Positions 6,910-18,092 of a DNA stretch of 23,866 nt are shown here, in pieces (positions within the stretch are counted from its first letter, which is position 1; every line of letters begins with the position of its first letter). The notes under the pieces were generated by a model. It worked only from the letters and a program-made list of their open reading frames with translations. It searched no databases and was not told where the DNA came from. The position numbers and the translations under genes were made by a program. The DNA is from a virus. The DNA is taken from the IMG/VR virus record IMGVR_UViG_3300048554_000384, positions 1-23,866 of that record; one strand, written 5' to 3'.

Positions 6910-7292
6910 GGTTTTCTTCCTCTGAGCTTACTAATTTTTTCTCTTCCCATGTACTCTTTTCTTCTTTGACGTTTACCTTTAAGATGTTTTTGTCCAGTAA
7001 TAGGTGTTGGCATCCATTCGCCTTTCATTATCATAATATCTAGTTCTTTATTATGACGTTTTACTGCTTGGTCTTTTTTACGTTTGCGTTTTGCACTTGG
7101 TTTTTCGTAATATTCTCTTTTAGAAAGTTCCTTTTGAAATTCCATTTTTTCAAGAACTTTTTTAAGTTTTCTGATGGCAATGTTTACATTACCATTTACA
7201 ACTGCAATAGAACGACCTTTGTCTTGTATTTGATTTTTTTCAGGACGTTTGCCCTTCCAATTTTTGTTAAAGTTTTGTTTGTGTTTATTCAT
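6906..7292 (-). CDS. rpsU: Ribosomal protein bS21 homologue with extensions
   Basis: 128 residues; the bS21 core covers about 28-82: VVNGNVNIAIRKLKKVLEKM, then KELSKREYYEKPSAKRKRKK. bS21 sits near the mRNA exit side of the 30S subunit and aids initiation. Cellular bS21 is about 70 residues; here there are some 27 extra residues in front and 45 behind, both basic. bS21 is among the ribosomal proteins repeatedly found in viruses, including SAR11 phages, and is thought to exchange into host ribosomes. The start overlaps the clpX stop (ATGAATAA) and the stop overlaps the next ATG. Alternative: an RNA-binding protein derived from bS21. Confidence 0.9.
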   Translation of the reverse strand: MNKHKQNFNKNWKGKRPEKNQIQDKGRSIAVVNGNVNIAIRKLKKVLEKMEFQKELSKREYYEKPSAKRKRKKDQAVKRHNKELDIMIMKGEWMPTPITGQKHLKGKRQRRKEYMGREKISKLRGRKP

Positions 7293-8553
7293 CTATTTGT
7301 CTGTATACCTTATAGTTAGCATCTATTTCTTCTTTACCATCAAAAACTAGGACAGGATGCTTTTCACTGCTTGATGGGTAACTATTAAATTTAACAGTTT
7401 TAACACCGTTCTCTTTTAATTCTTTTATTCTAAACATAACATTTATAATACTATTCTCTACTATACTTTTTAATGACCTTGCTCCTGTAGAAGACTTAAT
7501 AGCCATCTCAGCCACATTGTCATAATATTCGTCAGCAAATTCTAGTGCTATATCATCAACCTCCATTAATGCCGATACTTGAAGTATAACACTATTTTTA
7601 ATGTTTGTCAATATGTTCCTGTATTGTGCTTTATCTAAATTATCTAGTATTCCAAATACTGGTAGTCTACCAACTAACTCTGGAATAAGACCAAAATCAA
7701 CTATGTCTTGTTCTGTTAATTTGCTTAACAGCTCTTTCCTATCATCTGATCCTACAATTTTACTACCAAATCCTATTGTGCTAGATTTTCTTAACCGTTT
7801 TTCAATAATTTTTTCTATGCCTACAAATGCTCCACCAACAATAAACAACACATTAGACGTATCAAATTCTGCATAGTCATCGGAAATCTTTTTACCAGAG
7901 TTTACTTTAATTTTTGCTATGGTACCTTCTACTAATCTTAAGAGTGCTTGTTGCACACCTTCACCACTTACATCTCTAGTACCCGTATTGCTCTGACTAC
8001 GTCTAGCCTTTTTGTCTATCTCATCAATAAAAACTATTCCACGTTGAGCTAGTTCTATATCAAAGTTTGCCAAGTTTATTAGACGCTCTAAAACACTCTC
8101 TACATCTTCACCTACATATCCTGCTTCAGTTAATGTTGTGGCATCTGCAATAGCAAATGGGACACCTAACTTTTCTGCTAATGTTTTAACCAATAAAGTT
8201 TTTCCTGTACCAGTAGATCCTATAATAAGTATATTAGATTTCTCTATTTTATTATCTTTTATTTTATTACTGATTCTTTTATAATGATTGTATGAGCTAA
8301 CACTAAGAATTTCTTTTGCTGATTCTTGTCCAATAACATATTCATCTAAATAATCTTTTATGTCTTGTGGTTTAGGAATGTCTTCGAATGCAAAGTCAAA
8401 AAGATCTAATTTATCTTCATTTTTAACAATATTATAACTTAATGAAATACATTCGTTGCAAATGTAGGCATCAGGTCCTGCTATAAGTTTTTCTACTTCT
8501 TCTCTTTTCTTCCCACAAAAGTTACAATTTAATTGGTTATTATTTTCTGTCAT
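7285..8553 (-). CDS. clpX: ClpX-like AAA+ unfoldase
   Basis: 422 residues, full length for ClpX. The N-terminal zinc domain has C10-x2-C13 and C32-x2-C35. The AAA+ core has Walker A GSTGTGKT (112-119), pore loop GYVG (145-148), Walker B VFIDE (174-178) and a sensor/arginine region. IGF at 260-262 matches the loop by which ClpX docks on ClpP, so the protein could partner with host ClpP; no clpP is in the window. ClpX unfolds tagged proteins using ATP and passes them to ClpP. Overlaps the coiled-coil protein gene as ATGA. The zinc domain, which selects adaptors and substrates, may differ from the host's. Host-derived cargo is likely. Confidence 0.95.
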   Translation of the reverse strand: MTENNNQLNCNFCGKKREEVEKLIAGPDAYICNECISLSYNIVKNEDKLDLFDFAFEDIPKPQDIKDYLDEYVIGQESAKEILSVSSYNHYKRISNKIKDNKIEKSNILIIGSTGTGKTLLVKTLAEKLGVPFAIADATTLTEAGYVGEDVESVLERLINLANFDIELAQRGIVFIDEIDKKARRSQSNTGTRDVSGEGVQQALLRLVEGTIAKIKVNSGKKISDDYAEFDTSNVLFIVGGAFVGIEKIIEKRLRKSSTIGFGSKIVGSDDRKELLSKLTEQDIVDFGLIPELVGRLPVFGILDNLDKAQYRNILTNIKNSVILQVSALMEVDDIALEFADEYYDNVAEMAIKSSTGARSLKSIVENSIINVMFRIKELKENGVKTVKFNSYPSSSEKHPVLVFDGKEEIDANYKVYRQIDE

Positions 8554-10490
8554 TTTTTGCCAATGTATCTTTTGTTAGTAGGATTTTTATCTATGTCACT
8601 TTTTGGTAATGGCATAGCCCAGAAACCAATTTTTTTCTTTACGTCTTCTTCTGAACTTTTAATTAGCATATCATATATTTGTTCTTCTGTTAAGTCTTCT
8701 TTATTAAGTTCACTGTTTGCCATTAATCTTGCCGCTTCTTTTAAATCACCGGATGCGGCCTTTTCAACTTGTACAGGTACTTCTTTTTGTACTTCTATAA
8801 CCTTCTCAACCTCTACAATTTTTTCTACTTCTTTAGGTTGTTTTTGTATTTCTTTTTCTAAATTTTTAATTGTGTTCTTAAGACTATTATTTATTCTACT
8901 AAGCTCATCTACCTTTGAATTATCAGTCCTAACAACTAATCTTTCTGGTCCTGGGACTTCGACGATTCTTTCTGGTCCTGGGACTTCCTTTTCGACAATT
9001 CGTTCAACCTCCTTGATGACCTCAACCTCCTTTGCGACTTCAACCTCAATGATCTTTTCAACTGGCACCTCCCTTTCAACTACCACTTCATTAATTACTT
9101 CAACCGGAACTTCTACTATCTTCTCGACTTCTTTTTCTATTATAACTTCTTTAGGTTTATCGTCAAGAGCTTTTAATGTTTTTTTGTATTTTGTTTCCAA
9201 TAACGACAAGGCCTTTTTTAATTTTTCCGTTCTTTTTTTTTCGGCGGCACTTTCGGCCATTGCCTTTGCGGCATCTTCTGCCGCACTAGGAAGGTCTGGC
9301 ATATTGTCGCCATATATTTCTCTGGATTGTTCTTCAAAGTCACTGTCGTAATAATCATCTGGATCGTCGTCAGGTGATTTAGGACCAGTACTTTCTAAAT
9401 TTATGCCATATCTTAATAATGTTTGGTTAGCCGCAATCAATAACATAATTGCTAAAGGGTCAAATACAAAAACAAATAGCAATATAAATATCCTAACTGC
9501 TTTATCCATAACAGTTTGGTCTGATGCTCCGTATAGGAGTTCTGCTACATACTTAATTGGTCCTATTTCTCTTTCTAAGTCTCTTACTTTACTTTCTGCT
9601 TCAAATTTACTGTCTTTAAGTACTGCGATATTATCGTATATGGCGTCGATATCTGTGTTAAAAGCATTTATCTTTTCTATGTTCTGATCTTGCTGATTCG
9701 AACTAGTATTTCTTAGCCTGTTTATTTCTGCATTAGCACCGTTTATTGTATCTTGTGCTTGTAGTCGGTATGCATCTATATTTGCTTGTTGCTTGTCTAT
9801 ATCTGTTTTGATATCTGCACGTTGCTGTTCTTGTTGGTTATATAAGTCGTTTGCCTGTGCAACATAGTCTATCTTTTCTGTGGTATCTCCCTGGAATATA
9901 CCACCCTCATCTGTTACAACAACTTCTACACCTTTGTTTCTTAAATCGTTTACTGCTTTATCTAATACTGCTAGTTGATCTCTGAGCCTGTCTATTTGTC
10001 CTTGTGCATAATCTATGTCACCTTGTACTCTTTGCCATGCACCATCTCTGATAGTTTCCTGTTGTTCAATACTTTCACTTACATCAACACTACCACCTAC
10101 ACTTATTATCCTATCCTCTATAATAGCAATCTTATTTTCTTCTCTGAGAATAAGTCCGTCAACACGTTCTACTTCTGCAAAGGCTACAGCACCGTCACTA
10201 GATACATCACTGGCGGCCTTAGACAGGTAACCATATATACCTGCAGATGTTATAACCATCAGAACTATAACTGCTGTGGTCAGATATGTCTTGAGTAGTA
10301 TAGATGTTTCGTTCCAGTATCTGTAAAGCCAACTTGCTGTAAGTAGTTTACCTACTTCTAATGTACCAGCCATAATGGCTACACTTAGAGGCATACCACC
10401 AAAGAATATCATAAGTCCAGCAATACTGAACCATGCGGCCACACCTGCTATTGCAAGTGCTGTAAATAATGTAAGTAATCCAAATAGCAT
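8550..10490 (-). CDS. Membrane-anchored coiled-coil protein
   Basis: 646 residues. Three hydrophobic helices lie at about 1-31, 34-55 and 68-90; a long coiled coil follows (about 105-320, many Q/N/D/E); a fourth helix is at about 330-355 (FILLFVFVFDPLAIMLLIAA). The C-terminal half has charged coils, then a run of Val-Glu-rich repeats (VEKIVEVPVEV and variants) with PGPERIVEV/PGPERLVVR. Coil-containing membrane proteins of unknown function occur in marine T4-like phages. It opens the late operon with clpX, suggesting action at the host inner membrane late in infection. No SD is visible; the late box at 10499-10506 gives a leader of only about 3 nt. Confidence 0.75.
   Translation of the reverse strand: MLFGLLTLFTALAIAGVAAWFSIAGLMIFFGGMPLSVAIMAGTLEVGKLLTASWLYRYWNETSILLKTYLTTAVIVLMVITSAGIYGYLSKAASDVSSDGAVAFAEVERVDGLILREENKIAIIEDRIISVGGSVDVSESIEQQETIRDGAWQRVQGDIDYAQGQIDRLRDQLAVLDKAVNDLRNKGVEVVVTDEGGIFQGDTTEKIDYVAQANDLYNQQEQQRADIKTDIDKQQANIDAYRLQAQDTINGANAEINRLRNTSSNQQDQNIEKINAFNTDIDAIYDNIAVLKDSKFEAESKVRDLEREIGPIKYVAELLYGASDQTVMDKAVRIFILLFVFVFDPLAIMLLIAANQTLLRYGINLESTGPKSPDDDPDDYYDSDFEEQSREIYGDNMPDLPSAAEDAAKAMAESAAEKKRTEKLKKALSLLETKYKKTLKALDDKPKEVIIEKEVEKIVEVPVEVINEVVVEREVPVEKIIEVEVAKEVEVIKEVERIVEKEVPGPERIVEVPGPERLVVRTDNSKVDELSRINNSLKNTIKNLEKEIQKQPKEVEKIVEVEKVIEVQKEVPVQVEKAASGDLKEAARLMANSELNKEDLTEEQIYDMLIKSSEEDVKKKIGFWAMPLPKSDIDKNPTNKRYIGKK
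8941..8987. repeat. 20-bp direct repeat encoding PGPER(I/L)V units
   Basis: CTTTCTGGTCCTGGGACTTC occurs at 8941-8960 and again at 8968-8987, a 27-bp period equal to nine codons. It lies in the wider Val-Glu repeat region (about 8930-9150) of the coiled-coil protein, which is richer in C than its surroundings. Recent slippage expansion is likely. Confidence 0.8.
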
Positions 10491-10564: not shown

Positions 10565-11779
10565 ATGATTTCCATTGAGAACATACAACTATCTATACCT
10601 AACTTTTTAATTAATCATTCACAAGGGGTAAAATGGTCGCCTATGCCTACCTATGTAGACATGTTTTTATCTAATGATAAGAAATATATGAATTGGTTTT
10701 ACGATAAGTTTAAAAATGATTTTACACCTTTGCTACCAGAAGATTTTAGATTGGGTAGTAAGCATGGTACTAAAGGAATACCTATTCAGGAATTATTATC
10801 TAATGAACCAGACGATACATATTATGCCTTAAGTCATAATGAGCTTAGTTTATTACCTAAAAAGTATGCTAAACCATTATTAGAAAAATATAAAGTAATA
10901 TGTATAGACATCATGGAAGGCAGACAGTTTATTACTTCAGAAATATCAGATAAATTAAATCAATTTAGACAAGATTTTAAAGTACGAGAACTTATTGATC
11001 AGATGACAGGACCTATGTTTGGATTAGTAACATATAATAATGTTTCAAAACAATATAATAAACCAGAATTTAAATATAACCCAAAAAAATTAGCAGTTGT
11101 GCCTTGTCACAAACCCAGACCTGGCAGACTGTTTATGCTATCTGAATTACATAAACAGGAACTATTAGACAATTGTGATTGGACACTATTTCCAGACTTT
11201 AATGATAAAGTTTCAACAGAAGCTCTTATTATAGAAGGGAAAGGAGATGGCCATTTCTATCTGTCACCAAATTTAAATTATAAACAATGGCCATTACTTA
11301 CAGACAACACATTTAATGACATACAAGTATTTTTAAATGACCATAAATCACAATTACCAAAGTCATTTAACAATTTAACTAACAACACATTTTCAGATAG
11401 TTGTTTTAGTGTGTCTATGGACTTTCTAGGTGCTCATATGTTTAATGTTTCTTGTGAAACAAGAGATGATGATTGTGATGATAAAGATATTTTTATTACT
11501 GAAAAAACTTGGAAAGCATTTTTATATGCTACACCTTGTTTAGTATATGGCTCACCAAATGTAGAAAAGAAACTGACAGGTTATGGGTTTAAATTTCCTA
11601 GCAAGTCTAATTATGATCACTTACAAGGTAAAGCAAGAGTTAAAGCAATGGTAGATTTTTTAAGACAAAATCATAACGTACAAGAACTTAAAGATATCGC
11701 AGAACATAATTTTAATCTTGCATGGGATAGAAAATATTTGGTAAACCTTTTTATTGAGCACATAAAGAAAAAGCAGTAG
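10565..11779 (+). CDS. Glycosyltransferase-like protein (possible fucosyltransferase/GT10 type)
   Basis: 404 residues. The best landmark is in the C-terminal third: DIFITEKTWKAFLYATPCLV, then YGSPNVEKKLTGYGFKFP. This resembles the nucleotide-sugar-binding end of GT10-like and related phage glycosyltransferases (ITEKxxxA...G.P). The N-terminal 250 residues are not recognised. It has no SD and appears leaderless from the late box at 10552-10559. It ends in a terminator shared with the convergent QueD-family gene. It likely modifies the cell surface or a virion glycan with the sugars made by the genes at 14.4-18.1 kb. Fold assignment is from motif only. Confidence 0.55.
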   Translation: MISIENIQLSIPNFLINHSQGVKWSPMPTYVDMFLSNDKKYMNWFYDKFKNDFTPLLPEDFRLGSKHGTKGIPIQELLSNEPDDTYYALSHNELSLLPKKYAKPLLEKYKVICIDIMEGRQFITSEISDKLNQFRQDFKVRELIDQMTGPMFGLVTYNNVSKQYNKPEFKYNPKKLAVVPCHKPRPGRLFMLSELHKQELLDNCDWTLFPDFNDKVSTEALIIEGKGDGHFYLSPNLNYKQWPLLTDNTFNDIQVFLNDHKSQLPKSFNNLTNNTFSDSCFSVSMDFLGAHMFNVSCETRDDDCDDKDIFITEKTWKAFLYATPCLVYGSPNVEKKLTGYGFKFPSKSNYDHLQGKARVKAMVDFLRQNHNVQELKDIAEHNFNLAWDRKYLVNLFIEHIKKKQ

Positions 11780-13535: not shown

Positions 13536-13829
13536 CTATTTTGCTAAAGTGATGTTTGTAGTTGCTTCTATGAACTTGTCTGCAATAGCATCTGCTGTTT
13601 GTCCAAATGTTACAACTGTATCTTTATTTATACTAATTTTTTCTGGCATTGAGCTCATCATCCAAGGCACTAATCCTAATCCACCTTGTGGGTTTGCCGC
13701 AACTATACTTGCTTTAGAAACAACAAGGTTGTTATCTTTTTCTTCTTGGAATTGTGCTATGACTTCTTCGCCAGTCAGTAGTTTAAGTGAAATTATATCG
13801 TTTTTCTTTATAGGTTTGTCTAATAACAT
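13536..13829 (-). CDS. Small Sm/LSm-like protein
   Basis: 97 residues. The first half reads as a beta-barrel (DIISLKLLTGEEVIAQFQEE, then NNLVVSKASIV), the pattern of an Sm fold with the G-E-E-V turn. The second half is Met/Pro-rich and then helical. Sm-like proteins of this kind are recurrent in marine T4-like phages, function unknown; they could bind RNA as Hfq does. A late box (TATAAATA, 13853-13860) lies 23 nt upstream, with AGAGA as a weak SD. Confidence 0.6.
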   Translation of the reverse strand: MLLDKPIKKNDIISLKLLTGEEVIAQFQEEKDNNLVVSKASIVAANPQGGLGLVPWMMSSMPEKISINKDTVVTFGQTADAIADKFIEATTNITLAK

Positions 13830-13957: not shown

Positions 13958-14188
13958 ATGGATATTCTTAAAAGTGTTGGCGGATGGGCCAAACAACTTA
14001 CAGAAGTTGGTATCAGTGTTATTGCTCTTGGAGTAGTACTTGAAGTATTATTTGGTGGAGCAGTTCCTTTCCTAGGAGATTTCCAGGTTGTTACAAACAT
14101 CATGGCTATCTTGAATGGATTGAGTAACGAAGGCTTACTAGGATTAGTAGGTGTTTGGATACTGTACCATGTCTTTAACAAGAAATAA
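13958..14188 (+). CDS. Small hydrophobic conserved phage protein
   Basis: 76 residues starting MDILKSVGGWAKQLTEVG, with two hydrophobic segments (about 15-35 and 55-73), glycine-rich and ending FNKK. Similar small proteins (VGGWAKxLTEVG...LEVLFGG) are familiar from marine T4-like phages but have no known function. The ATG at 13958 has a strong GGAGGT 4 nt upstream, the best SD in the window, which implies high expression; an upstream in-frame ATG is not needed. It ends in a clear terminator, so it is a single-gene unit. A virion or membrane component is possible. Confidence 0.75.
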   Translation: MDILKSVGGWAKQLTEVGISVIALGVVLEVLFGGAVPFLGDFQVVTNIMAILNGLSNEGLLGLVGVWILYHVFNKK

Positions 14189-14207: not shown

Positions 14208-14229
14208 AGGGCGGTTATCCGCCCTTTTC
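14208..14229 (+). terminator. Intrinsic terminator
   Basis: AGGGCGG-TTAT-CCGCCCT stem (7 bp, 4-nt loop), then TTTTCT. The most GC-rich hairpin in the window, directly after the small membrane protein gene. Confidence 0.9.
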
Positions 14230-14270: not shown

Positions 14271-14278
14271 GTTAAATA
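14271..14278 (+). promoter_or_regulatory. Late promoter-like box for the 14.3-kb RNA
   Basis: GTTAAATA on the plus strand. With T4 geometry the +1 is 14284, one base from the foot of the closing helix of the candidate RNA. Confidence 0.5.
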
Positions 14279-14282
14279 AAAG

Positions 14283-14387
14283 TGTTGGGCAGAATAGATT
14301 TCAGTCTAACAGTAATTAAACATCGCCTCCCTCTTAGGAAAGGCTAGATAGAGCAGGAGAACTGCAAAATGACTGTTCAACATTTTT
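14283..14387 (+). ncRNA. Candidate structured RNA of about 105 nt
   Basis: There is no substantial gene between 14,230 and 14,408. The ends pair: TGTTGGGCAG (14283-14292) with CTGTTCAACA (14373-14382), ten pairs including two G-U, followed by T5. Inside are small hairpins: TAGA/TCTA (14295-14308), GCCT/AGGC (14325-14344) and GCAG/CTGC with a GAGAA loop (14353-14365). A late box predicts the 5' end at 14284. A 7-codon ORF (14369-14392, MTVQHFC) with AGGAGA 8 nt upstream overlaps the 3' helix. It could be an sRNA or a cis-acting leader. It does not match a riboswitch class I know. Helices were found by eye. Confidence 0.45.
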
Positions 14388-14410
14388 GCTAGGTGGCCAC
14401 CAAGCATTTT
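14388..14410. terminator. Palindrome/possible bidirectional terminator
   Basis: GCTAGGTGGCCACCAAGC is an inverted repeat with one mismatch and no spacer, followed on the plus strand by ATTTT. It sits between the candidate RNA and the end of the leftward sulfotransferase gene, whose stop it touches. It could end both transcripts or be a protein-binding site (the core GGTGGCCACC is a perfect palindrome). Confidence 0.4.
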
Positions 14411-15077
14411 AAGGAATGTAGTATGACTGATTCCTTATGTGATTTATAATCTTATAGTCTTCAACTCTAAGATCGTTTGTAAACCATTCTCTATTAGTTT
14501 TAGAAATACTATATGTCTGATTAATATCTGGGAATTGTTTTCTGCTTCTTTTTAAGAAAGGATCTTCTGGTAGATTTACGCCTTGTTCTTTCATTATGCT
14601 ACTTAATGAATTTAATTCAAATACGTTTTTAACTTTTGCTTCATGTTTTTTATATGTTGATAAATTGCCTAACCAATATGTTAAAGGAGATAATAAAAGA
14701 TTAAGTGGAGTAGTTCCAAATTCATGCTCAACTTTATCTGCAGAGCCTTCTCTAAGAGCTGTTATAAAATGATTAGGAGTAGGGAAGTCTCTAAAAATAT
14801 TTTTTTCTCCCTTACCTAAATCCTGATAGCCTCCTCCCTGAAATAAAATATTTACACCTTTATTAATTTGTTTACGTTTATTGTTAGTTGCTCTTTCCCA
14901 AAAGCCACTACAAAATCTTTCCAAAGGGTCGCGAATGCTAAACACACAGTATGTTTCAATATTAGTTAAAGTGATTGCGTGACTAGGTGCAACAACAAAG
15001 GGTACAGGATTTTGAGCCAACATAAAGGCATTTCTTAATGATGTTCCTCCTGTTTTTGGTATATGTAAATATATCAT
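14409..15077 (-). CDS. Sulfotransferase-family protein
   Basis: 222 residues. HIPKTGGTSLRNAF at 5-18 is the 5'-phosphosulfate loop of PAPS-dependent sulfotransferases, and FSIRDPLERFCSGF at 46-59 is the 3'-phosphate motif (R49, S57). The enzyme would move a sulfuryl group from PAPS to a hydroxyl, here most likely on a glycan. It is last in the glycan operon, overlapping the previous gene by one base (TAATG). No separate promoter is seen. Cellular relatives are usually somewhat longer. Confidence 0.8.
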   Translation of the reverse strand: MIYLHIPKTGGTSLRNAFMLAQNPVPFVVAPSHAITLTNIETYCVFSIRDPLERFCSGFWERATNNKRKQINKGVNILFQGGGYQDLGKGEKNIFRDFPTPNHFITALREGSADKVEHEFGTTPLNLLLSPLTYWLGNLSTYKKHEAKVKNVFELNSLSSIMKEQGVNLPEDPFLKRSRKQFPDINQTYSISKTNREWFTNDLRVEDYKIINHIRNQSYYIP

Positions 15078-15805
15078 TATCCATTATTTACCGGAACCTC
15101 TAACCATTCACAGATATAATTAAACAATTCTACTCTATTTTGTATACCTCTACTACTATGCCAATGCACAATATGAGCATCATTAATATCTATTCCATTC
15201 CATTGATTGCCTTGTTCAATGTTAGTATCTAAATTTGGTATCATATGTCCCTGATAAGCCATTTTAGGATCTATAACGTCATCATAATTTATGTCTTGTC
15301 CCCATAACATATCGTTATAGATGTCTTGCTCATCTGACCAAATTTTTAAACTATCTATTTTTTCCATAGTATAGTCTATCCATTTTTTGTCCATTGTGGA
15401 TGGATAGTATCTTACATCACAATTAAAATTATTTTGAAATTTGGTTGTATGTTTTGGATCACTATGGTTAAACATTGTGAAATTATCGTACTTACCAAAA
15501 ATTTCAGTAGGCTGAATCATTGTAGTATCTAAACCAGTGAATAAAATATTACATGGTTCACTATTCCACAGATCATATATTTTTCTAAAGTTTTGTTGGA
15601 AAACTTCAAATACATGATTTACATCTTCTTCTAATAAAACATATTCCCACTCTCCTTGTAAAAAATGATTAAAAGTTGAGTAGGATAAATTTTGTAACTC
15701 CTGATACATTGGGTAAGTATCTGGTTCATGTATAGGTATCTGTTGAGTAGGGTCGTAGTCTTCTTTGGTTACTTTACAAAGAGTTTGTACAAAATAGTTC
15801 TTCAT
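15077..15805 (-). CDS. Probable glycosyltransferase-like protein
   Basis: 242 residues with no strong motif. WSDEQDIYNDMLWG and the C-terminal AHIVHWHSSRG resemble the acceptor-side and end regions of GT-A-like sugar transferases (D-x-x-N pattern and the IVHxH segment); EWEYVLLEEDVNHV could carry a metal-binding acid cluster. The operon context, between an RfbH-type dehydrase and a sulfotransferase, supports a transferase role. ATGA overlap with the dehydrase gene. The alternative is a non-catalytic glycan-binding protein. Confidence 0.45.
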   Translation of the reverse strand: MKNYFVQTLCKVTKEDYDPTQQIPIHEPDTYPMYQELQNLSYSTFNHFLQGEWEYVLLEEDVNHVFEVFQQNFRKIYDLWNSEPCNILFTGLDTTMIQPTEIFGKYDNFTMFNHSDPKHTTKFQNNFNCDVRYYPSTMDKKWIDYTMEKIDSLKIWSDEQDIYNDMLWGQDINYDDVIDPKMAYQGHMIPNLDTNIEQGNQWNGIDINDAHIVHWHSSRGIQNRVELFNYICEWLEVPVNNG

Positions 15806-17145
15806 AGTATTCTGTTTTCATATTGTGATAAAAACTCGTCCGCAATCTTCTCGATCCATGCAATCTGTTCTGGTGTAATTACAGCACTTGCTCCATGAAA
15901 GAAAGTATTTGTTAATGTAAATGTTGCATTAGGGTAATTATCTTTTGCGTCTTGAGGATCCATTAAATGACTATATGCTGGTTGTAACATAATATTACCA
16001 GCAAAATAAGGTCTTGTTTGAATTTTATTATCTTCTAAATAGTCTACATATTGTGTTCTAGTAAACGGTGCATTTTTCCTTATTGTTAATGGGAAAGCAA
16101 ACCAACTAGGATCTGAATGTTCCCTTGGTCTAGGTAATATAAAATATTTTTCATATTTTTCGTATATTTTAAATAGTAAACTGTAATTTCTTCTTCTTAA
16201 GGAATGAATTTCGTCTAGTTTTTTAAGTTGCTCAAGACCCATTGCACTCTGGATATCTATAGGTTTTAAATTATATCCTATTTCATCATATACAAATTTA
16301 TGATCAAATGTTTGGTCAGGCATTGTAGGTATCCAATCACTAAAACGTTTTTTACATGTTCCGTTTTTTAGTTTGTTTGCTTCTGGACCTACACAATAAC
16401 AACCTCTACCCCATTCCCTAAAACTTCTAGTAATTACTTCTTGCTCATTTGTATTACATGCAACAAAGCCACCTTCTCCCATAGTCATATGATGTGCAGG
16501 ATAAAAACTACAACTTGCCATTTCACCAAAACTACCTAAAGGCTTTCCTCTGTATGTTGTACCCAATGCATCGCAACAATCTTCTAATAATACTAGATTA
16601 TACCTTTCCACTAACTCCATAAGTTGATCCATGTTAGGCGGATTTCCTAGTACGTGAGCGAATGTTATCACTTTGATGTCAGGATCATTTTTTAATATCT
16701 CCTCACACTGATCTAAATCTAAATTAAGTGTATCTAATTCAATGTCTACAAATACAGGTTCAAATCCTACCTGTAATGTTGGATTAAGTGTTGTTGGAAA
16801 ACCTGCAATAGGCATTAATACTTTAGTACCTTTAGGAAAGTTATGTCCCCTTTTACTTGTTAATGATGCCATCATTAATAAATTGGCACTACTACCTGAG
16901 TTAGTTAATACACCGTGTTTTTTGCCATAATATTTTGGAAACTTACGTTCAAATTTTAAACTTTTATCTCCCATTACTAACCATCCATCCAGTAATGTTT
17001 CTGCGGCACTCACATACTCATCACTACTAAACAAAGGACCAGCATAATTTACAAAGTCTTTGCCAGGCTCCCATGTTTTGTTTGCTTGTTTTTCATCTAT
17101 ATATTCTTTTATAGATTCAAGAATGTCATTTAGTTTGTTATCCAT
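15802..17145 (-). CDS. rfbH: RfbH-type CDP-4-keto-6-deoxyglucose-3-dehydrase (E1)
   Basis: 447 residues, DegT/DnrJ/EryC1/StrS fold. In SFYPAHHMTMGEGG, His218 stands where aminotransferases have the PLP-binding Lys, the mark of the dehydrases RfbH/E1 and ColD. C191, C249, C251 and C264 match the E1 [2Fe-2S] spacing C-x57-C-x1-C exactly; the last interval is x12 against the x7 I recall for Yersinia E1. The Fe-S cysteines favour RfbH over ColD. RfbH removes the C3 hydroxyl on the way to 3,6-dideoxyhexoses of O-antigens and normally needs an E3 reductase, not seen here. It appears leaderless, the late box ending 5 nt before the ATG, and heads the glycan operon. Confidence 0.9.
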   Translation of the reverse strand: MDNKLNDILESIKEYIDEKQANKTWEPGKDFVNYAGPLFSSDEYVSAAETLLDGWLVMGDKSLKFERKFPKYYGKKHGVLTNSGSSANLLMMASLTSKRGHNFPKGTKVLMPIAGFPTTLNPTLQVGFEPVFVDIELDTLNLDLDQCEEILKNDPDIKVITFAHVLGNPPNMDQLMELVERYNLVLLEDCCDALGTTYRGKPLGSFGEMASCSFYPAHHMTMGEGGFVACNTNEQEVITRSFREWGRGCYCVGPEANKLKNGTCKKRFSDWIPTMPDQTFDHKFVYDEIGYNLKPIDIQSAMGLEQLKKLDEIHSLRRRNYSLLFKIYEKYEKYFILPRPREHSDPSWFAFPLTIRKNAPFTRTQYVDYLEDNKIQTRPYFAGNIMLQPAYSHLMDPQDAKDNYPNATFTLTNTFFHGASAVITPEQIAWIEKIADEFLSQYENRIL

Positions 17146-17150
17146 ATCAA

Positions 17151-17158
17151 TATTTATA
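17151..17158 (-). promoter_or_regulatory. Late promoter box, 5 nt before an ATG
   Basis: Perfect TATAAATA on the minus strand, then TTGAT, then the rfbH ATG at 17145. No SD. Predicted +1 is the A of ATG. Confidence 0.75.
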
Positions 17159-17165
17159 TACCATT

Positions 17166-18092
17166 TTATTCGTATTCTACAGGTTCTGATCTATTAGTTT
17201 TTAATTCGCAGTTATCAAATTTTCCTACAGTCTCATAAACTAATGACTCTAATGTATCATTAAATTTAAAATTAAATGTTTCTTGAAATTTTGTAGTAGT
17301 GACACCAAAGTTATAATTCTTTTTTTCTAATTTTTCGTTAGTAATAACTTCTGGAGTATCTTTGTTTATAACTTTTACTTTGGATGCCATGCCTACTACT
17401 TCAGCAATCTCTCCTGATGTACTTGTAAAACTTGCCAAGTTATATATGCCTCTGTTGTCTTCATTTGACTCTATTATTGTTTCTAAGGCATTCATTAAAT
17501 CATTTATTCCTAATATGCTTCTTTTAGTATCAGCATTAAACAAATGTATCTCACCTTTTGTTTTTGCTGTATTAGTCATAGCATTTATCATTACATCAGT
17601 TCTTATATGTGGAGCCGGCCCATTTACCGTACCAAATCGCAATCCATAGAATTCAGAATCACTTAATTTTGCTAATTGGTCTACTTGTAGTTTTGCCATA
17701 TCATAAAAATTTATAGGAGAAAAATCTAAATATTCTTCATCTATCTCGTCTTCAGTTGTATTTCCATATACACTACTGCTACTGGCGTAAATAAATTTTG
17801 TACCATTTAATTTCTTTAGCAGGTTGGCAAAGTTTCTAACATTGTTATTCCAACTACTAAATTTGTCTTCACACATCTTAACACTACTATGACCTGCTAA
17901 CAATATAACGGTATCAAATGTTTTAATGTATCTATCAGTAACATCATTGTAATCAAAAAACTCGTATTGTAATTCTTCTGGATTACCAAACCAATTAATA
18001 TCCACATTGGTAATATTATATTTGTCTTTAAAAACTTTATTAAATTTAGACCCGATGTAGCCTACGCCACCTAATAGCAATATATCCTTCAT
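17166..18092 (-). CDS. NAD(P)-dependent sugar epimerase/reductase (extended SDR, WcaG-like)
   Basis: 308 residues. The N-terminal Rossmann motif LLLGGVGYIGSKF (GGxGxxG at 8-14) binds NAD(P). The catalytic set is visible: Ser in YASSSSVYG (about 104-107) and Y130-x3-K134 in FYDMAK. RFGTVNGPAPH is the usual substrate-side strand. It would epimerise, dehydrate or reduce a nucleotide sugar, most plausibly acting after the RfbH-type step to set the final dideoxy- or deoxy-sugar. The late box variant GGTAAATA ends 5 nt before the ATG, with no SD. Confidence 0.85.
   Translation of the reverse strand: MKDILLLGGVGYIGSKFNKVFKDKYNITNVDINWFGNPEELQYEFFDYNDVTDRYIKTFDTVILLAGHSSVKMCEDKFSSWNNNVRNFANLLKKLNGTKFIYASSSSVYGNTTEDEIDEEYLDFSPINFYDMAKLQVDQLAKLSDSEFYGLRFGTVNGPAPHIRTDVMINAMTNTAKTKGEIHLFNADTKRSILGINDLMNALETIIESNEDNRGIYNLASFTSTSGEIAEVVGMASKVKVINKDTPEVITNEKLEKKNYNFGVTTTKFQETFNFKFNDTLESLVYETVGKFDNCELKTNRSEPVEYE

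Follow-up and report, generated by a model that had tools for sequence, protein, structure and literature searches.

A probable new family of structured late RNAs in large marine phages

Introduction

Little is known of structured small RNAs in lytic marine phages. The pRNA of phi29 is about 120 nt long, with a paired foot and loop complementarity. Hfq-dependent, trans-acting sRNAs encoded by phages include VpdS and PreS, and CfrI of cyanophage S-PM2 is an antisense RNA to psbA (review PMC12197685). A literature search, which was not exhaustive, led to these Hfq-dependent sRNAs and CfrI (PMC12197685) and to no RNA resembling the element described here.

The element lies in a viral DNA of 23,866 nucleotides (IMG/VR record IMGVR_UViG_3300048554_000384, positions 1 to 23,866), hereafter the window. 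It occupies an intergenic site, with the terminator hairpin (14208-14225) of an upstream gene for a 75-aa protein on one side and the end, at 14409, of a convergent gene of the sulfotransferase family (PF03567) on the other. In an initial annotation of the window, a promoter box, this terminator and convergent gene end, a foot helix, inner hairpins, a T5 run, an AGGAGA motif and a tiny open reading frame (ORF) were listed, and all of them are present where they were placed. No RNA class could be named for the region; a scan with Rfam release 15 of the window and of loci with copies from groups A/B, C and D (defined below) agrees, giving no match at the gathering threshold and only chance-like hits below it. 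The element is very probably a stand-alone late noncoding structured RNA, and in large marine phages it probably represents a new RNA family that acts as RNA and not as a peptide message.

Distribution and conservation

The element was found in 34 marine viral contigs, the window included, as 24 distinct copies in four groups: A/B (the window and L001-L020), L030/L045, C (L146-L155) and D (L145). Where A/B is named without qualification, L030/L045 are included. The search started from the 75-aa gene, which gave 20 IMG/VR contigs with the element, and a 19-base invariant stretch added two more that lack this gene. A covariance model built from the 16 distinct A/B copies (R1) detected a distant copy, L108 (the same as L145; E 3.8e-6), whose neighbouring Sm-like gene is 39% identical. 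A degenerate pattern search then gave ten further contigs. R1, which contains none of them, scores the ten group C contigs at E 7e-9 to 5e-12 and the group D copy at 5e-6. The covariance model search suggested in the initial annotation has thus yielded homologues in marine viral contigs, and compensatory changes were found among them.

Several matches were rejected as chance: pattern matches in L156-L159, all four of which R1 ignores, and in L049, L050 and L052-L066; a weak covariance-model match in AG-345-O18, in a sequence without the element's motifs; and covariance-model matches in other Sm-like loci, with E above 1. Among isolated phages, blastn with the window gave no homologue, and model R2 found no copy in five isolate or single-cell records. 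Wherever whole records were searched, the element is single per record.

At 15 loci that carry the adjacent gene, identity is 91% in the core, compared with 62% in the spacer upstream of it and 63% immediately downstream. For the adjacent gene at the same loci it is 92% over codon positions 1+2 and 69% at third positions. Judged by these identities, the core is conserved like codon positions 1+2 while its flanks diverge, and its recurrence is well beyond chance. All copies belong to a single phage lineage, in which gene order is broadly conserved. The Gp23 and RegA families gave no match in the contigs, which are fragments and in which the controls also gave no signal.

Late promoter and start site

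Each of the 16 distinct A/B copies, L030/L045 counted in, has the late-type promoter box GTTAAATA (14271-14278 in the window, + strand), always equally far from the core. In the distant groups the box is NGTAAATA or CTTAAATA. GTTAAATA is a variant of the NATAAATA-like, T4-type late box, and its fixed distance from the core would mark a late transcription unit. The 5-nt spacer between box and core is variable in A/B, and in every copy the sixth base after the box is the first of the conserved block. In these contigs an ORF start lies near 68 NATAAATA boxes, 23 of which precede the ATG by exactly 5 nt; NTTAAATA boxes do so in 5 of 36 cases, and scrambled control words in none. This NATAAATA-N5-ATG calibration in the same phages, together with the block start at the sixth base, places +1 at G14284. 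The box had been taken to predict a start at 14284, the foot of the helix, and conservation in the homologues begins exactly there. From this start the RNA is predicted to be about 125 nt long, with R1 spanning 14284-14411 on the + strand.

Many late genes of the window (for example at 10565 and 15802-17145) and of L077-L086 are apparently leaderless, with NATAAATA, exactly 5 nt and then ATG, an arrangement that is unusual in phages with T4-type late promoters.

Secondary structure

Folding energy alone does not distinguish the element from shuffled sequence (z -1.03), and the simple energy z-score was set aside as uninformative. The foot helix, P1, is formed by GUUGGGCAG (14284-14292) and CUGUUCAAC (14373-14381), which pair in 24 of 24 copies. 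In the window this closing helix has 9 pairs, or 11 counting flanking bases. Across the copies, GGRCAG with CUGUYC, plus outer pairs, is always intact, in some copies with one bulged U. All 144 core pairs form on the + strand, 19 of them as G-U, compared with 125 on the complementary strand, which places the RNA on the + strand. Variation in P1 is one-sided with pairing kept; its innermost pair is A-U in group C and U-A in group D, and is open in A/B. An alternative helix, AACAGU/ACUGUU, was rejected as energetically poor. The initial annotation had described a region with paired ends, inner hairpins and a T5 run behind the closing helix; the helix and the hairpins stand, whereas the T5 (14383-14387) is not kept across copies and was discarded as a terminator.

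P1 encloses three hairpins. P2, UAGAU-UUCA-GUCUA (14295-14308), has a variable 5' strand and is weakly supported; the segment UUCAGUCUAACA (14300-14311) is invariant in 24 of 24 copies. P3, GCCU-CCCUCUUAGGAA-AGGC (14325-14344), has a C-rich loop, and its stem changes on both sides: 18 copies have GCCU/AGGC and 6 have GGCU/AGCC, with C-G swapped for G-C. P4, GCAG-GAGAA-CUGC (14353-14365), has an invariant GAG in its loop and contains the Shine-Dalgarno-like AGGAG in A/B only. A contact between the CUC of the P3 loop and the GAG of the P4 loop is possible, since both triplets are invariant. The 3' hairpin, P5 (14387-14406), is built around the palindrome GGTGGCCACC (14392-14401). Its outer and inner pairs vary two-sidedly across the groups, and the self-complementary dyad centre stays GGCC or GCGC. 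No conserved U-tract follows P5. In group C its arms are A/U-rich like those of an intrinsic terminator, with U-rich 3' arms.

The covariation score of the A/B alignment, which had been fitted to the model, is greater than those of all 500 shuffles, a control that leaves relatedness in, and of all slid versions. Pairs are kept through two-sided change in P3 and P5 and through one-sided change with 100% pairing in P1, as would be expected of a structured noncoding RNA. The structured RNA with a promoter at its foot, as originally proposed, therefore agrees with what the copies have in common: conservation from +1, a foot that is always paired, and two other helices with compensatory changes. 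Sequence comparison is taken here to establish the conservation, the exact start, P1, P3, P5 and the irrelevance of the tiny ORF, and it points to a noncoding structured RNA, made on the + strand from a late promoter and held under strong selection.

The same site could also be read as a DNA element at the edge of a variable block, made up of a promoter and either a bidirectional terminator or a protein-binding palindrome; the RNA would then be a by-product. The dyad symmetry of the P5 palindrome, kept even at its centre, would suit such a site, as would its position between convergent transcription units with genes to the right that vary among phages, and the terminator-like arms of P5 in group C. 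However, the conservation spans the whole transcribed part from +1, most copies have no T-run after P5, and a DNA site needs neither the strand-specific G-U pairs in P1 nor the two-sided change in P3. This makes a DNA element rather unlikely.

The 5' strand of P1 has an alternative local partner, GUCUAAC (14304-14310), and in A/B the energies of P1 and of this 5' hairpin lie within about 2.5 kcal/mol. In groups C and D, P1 is predicted with a probability of 0.99-1.00. The 5' hairpin is favoured over P1 in only some A/B copies, and the distant groups choose P1, so it was rejected as the main fold. A 5' strand with two mutually exclusive folds of almost equal energy, together with a Shine-Dalgarno-like sequence in P4, could belong to a riboswitch-like 5' regulatory leader of a downstream gene since lost, or to a cis regulator of the upstream or convergent genes. 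Against this, the competing fold is absent in the distant groups, and the contexts laid out have no co-directional + strand gene downstream, where convergent, phage-variable genes follow, so that a leader or cis regulator is improbable.

The tiny open reading frame

The tiny ORF of the window (14369-14392, + strand; ATG ACT GTT CAA CAT TTT TGC TAG, encoding MTVQHFC) has an AGGAGA Shine-Dalgarno sequence upstream and had been noted as overlapping the 3' helix and stopping in the next palindrome. It could be taken to make the element a very small messenger, whose leader sequesters the Shine-Dalgarno sequence in P4 and whose product is a peptide of 7-19 aa. All 16 distinct A/B copies do have a Shine-Dalgarno-like GGAG and an ATG, and their spacing of 8-9 nt is kept through indels. 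However, this ATG opens frames of 7-19 codons that differ among the copies, the frame shifts after codon 3, so that translation would cross the palindrome in either of two frames, and the ORF lengths are those expected by chance in AT-rich sequence. Groups C and D have neither the Shine-Dalgarno sequence nor the ATG. Since the frame differs among A/B copies and both signals are missing from C and D, the peptide is not a conserved product; the ORF was rejected in that role and is probably incidental, and the messenger reading is very unlikely. In group C (for example L147, element at 8719-8847, - strand), the RNA has an AUG at +1 that would open a leaderless MDRLNSV, which the other groups lack.

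The Sm-like neighbour and gene order

The divergent upstream neighbour of the RNA is a gene (13536-13829, - strand) for a 97-aa Sm/LSm-like protein. The protein has a profile match to PDB 3by7 (E 2.7e-6), and its AF2 model (pLDDT 77) has 3by7 as best Foldseek match (E 5e-6), followed by Sm/LSm chains. It was assigned to phrog_527, as a distant relative of that family and of 3by7, whose relatives are common in cyanophages. The gene adjoins the element in every locus tested, even where the 75-aa gene is missing, and in L145 it does so where both the 75-aa and the hydrolase genes are missing. Nuclease, hydrolase and UvdE genes also hold their position in most of these phages. As all copies come from one lineage with a conserved gene order, the linkage to the Sm-like gene is not independent evidence. 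A functional link between the RNA and the Sm-like protein is only suggested by this arrangement, and the neighbour need not be the partner. The cyanophage genomes searched have Sm-like genes, and no such RNA was found in them. No Sm-type site in the linker is conserved across copies; the candidate AUUUUUG was rejected, being confined to the window and near-identical copies.

The 75-aa gene (13961-14188) encodes a small, hydrophobic-looking protein without a family match, nearly identical across the A/B phages; relatives of it occur in L021-L023, which have neither the RNA nor the Sm-like gene. The variable block that separates the RNA from the conserved UvdE gene (window 14409-18092, and matching parts of L001, L003, L017, L045 and L146-L155) holds sulfotransferase, DegT aminotransferase, epimerase-like and other genes, and its content differs among phages. 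Also encoded in the window, at 7285-8553 on the - strand, is a ClpX-like AAA protein of the phage that has a ClpX zinc finger domain.

Possible function

In the proposed mechanism, a T4-type late promoter would start the RNA at G14284, and its 5' end would pair with an internal strand into P1, enclosing P2, P3 (loop CCCUC) and P4 (loop with GAG), with the palindrome-built P5 as a separate 3' hairpin. In A/B, the 5' strand could switch between P1 and the local hairpin. P5 may be the 3' end or a dimer contact, its self-complementary loop joining two molecules; the dimer calculated for this palindromic loop is far more stable than the monomer. The RNA would act in trans late in infection, either as a riboregulator, with the C-rich P3 loop pairing with Shine-Dalgarno-like GGAG or GAGGG, or as the RNA component of an RNP whose protein is the Sm-like product of the adjacent gene. 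Counts of GAGGGAG, the sites complementary to the P3 loop, are at chance level in related contigs, with no excess, and this count revealed no target in trans. A role as riboregulator or RNP component is put forward tentatively, and the explanation as a whole, a late structured noncoding RNA of about 125 nt acting in one of these ways, has about an even chance of being right. More doubtful is a phage-encoded RNP module, in which the phage's own Sm/LSm ring protein would join a dedicated late RNA from the adjacent divergent unit; such a particle would be comparable to a private Hfq-sRNA pair or to a snRNP-like particle, and possibly multimeric via the palindromic 3' loop.

Very unlikely is a single-copy late virion or packaging RNA analogous to phi29 pRNA, possibly assembled on an Sm-like protein ring: the late box, size, closed foot, invariant palindromic loop with its stable calculated dimer, and the five chains with which 3by7 was solved would fit it, but such a dimer is expected from any palindrome, and T4-type packaging motors are not known to require RNA.

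Because its start is defined, its fold can be tested, a covariance model recognises its distant relatives and there is a candidate partner, the expression, partner and role of the late structured RNA are directly testable. If the link to the Sm-like protein is true, it would assign a first function to the phrog_527/3by7 family, which is common in cyanophages.

Comparison with known systems

Like VpdS and PreS, the element would be a small phage RNA with its own transcription, in whose action an Sm-fold protein may take part, and its unpaired C-rich loop could pair with Shine-Dalgarno sequences. Unlike them, it has a T4-type late promoter, a phage-encoded Sm-like protein beside it, a multi-hairpin body closed by the 5' end, and a palindromic 3' hairpin without a conserved U tail. 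CfrI is likewise noncoding and also comes from a marine T4-type phage, but it is an antisense RNA to psbA, whereas this RNA is structured and lies in its own intergenic site. The resemblance to phi29 pRNA, compared by Rfam scan only, consists of a length of about 120 nt, a paired foot and possible self- or inter-molecular loop complementarity, whereas the present RNA matches no Rfam family and comes from another phage type. The product of the neighbouring gene has, by profile and model, the same fold as 3by7, an Sm-like protein of GOS/cyanophage origin (phrog_527). In the cyanophages examined, however, the gene for that protein has a different location and the RNA was not found, whereas in the marine phages described here the Sm-like gene and the late RNA stand side by side.
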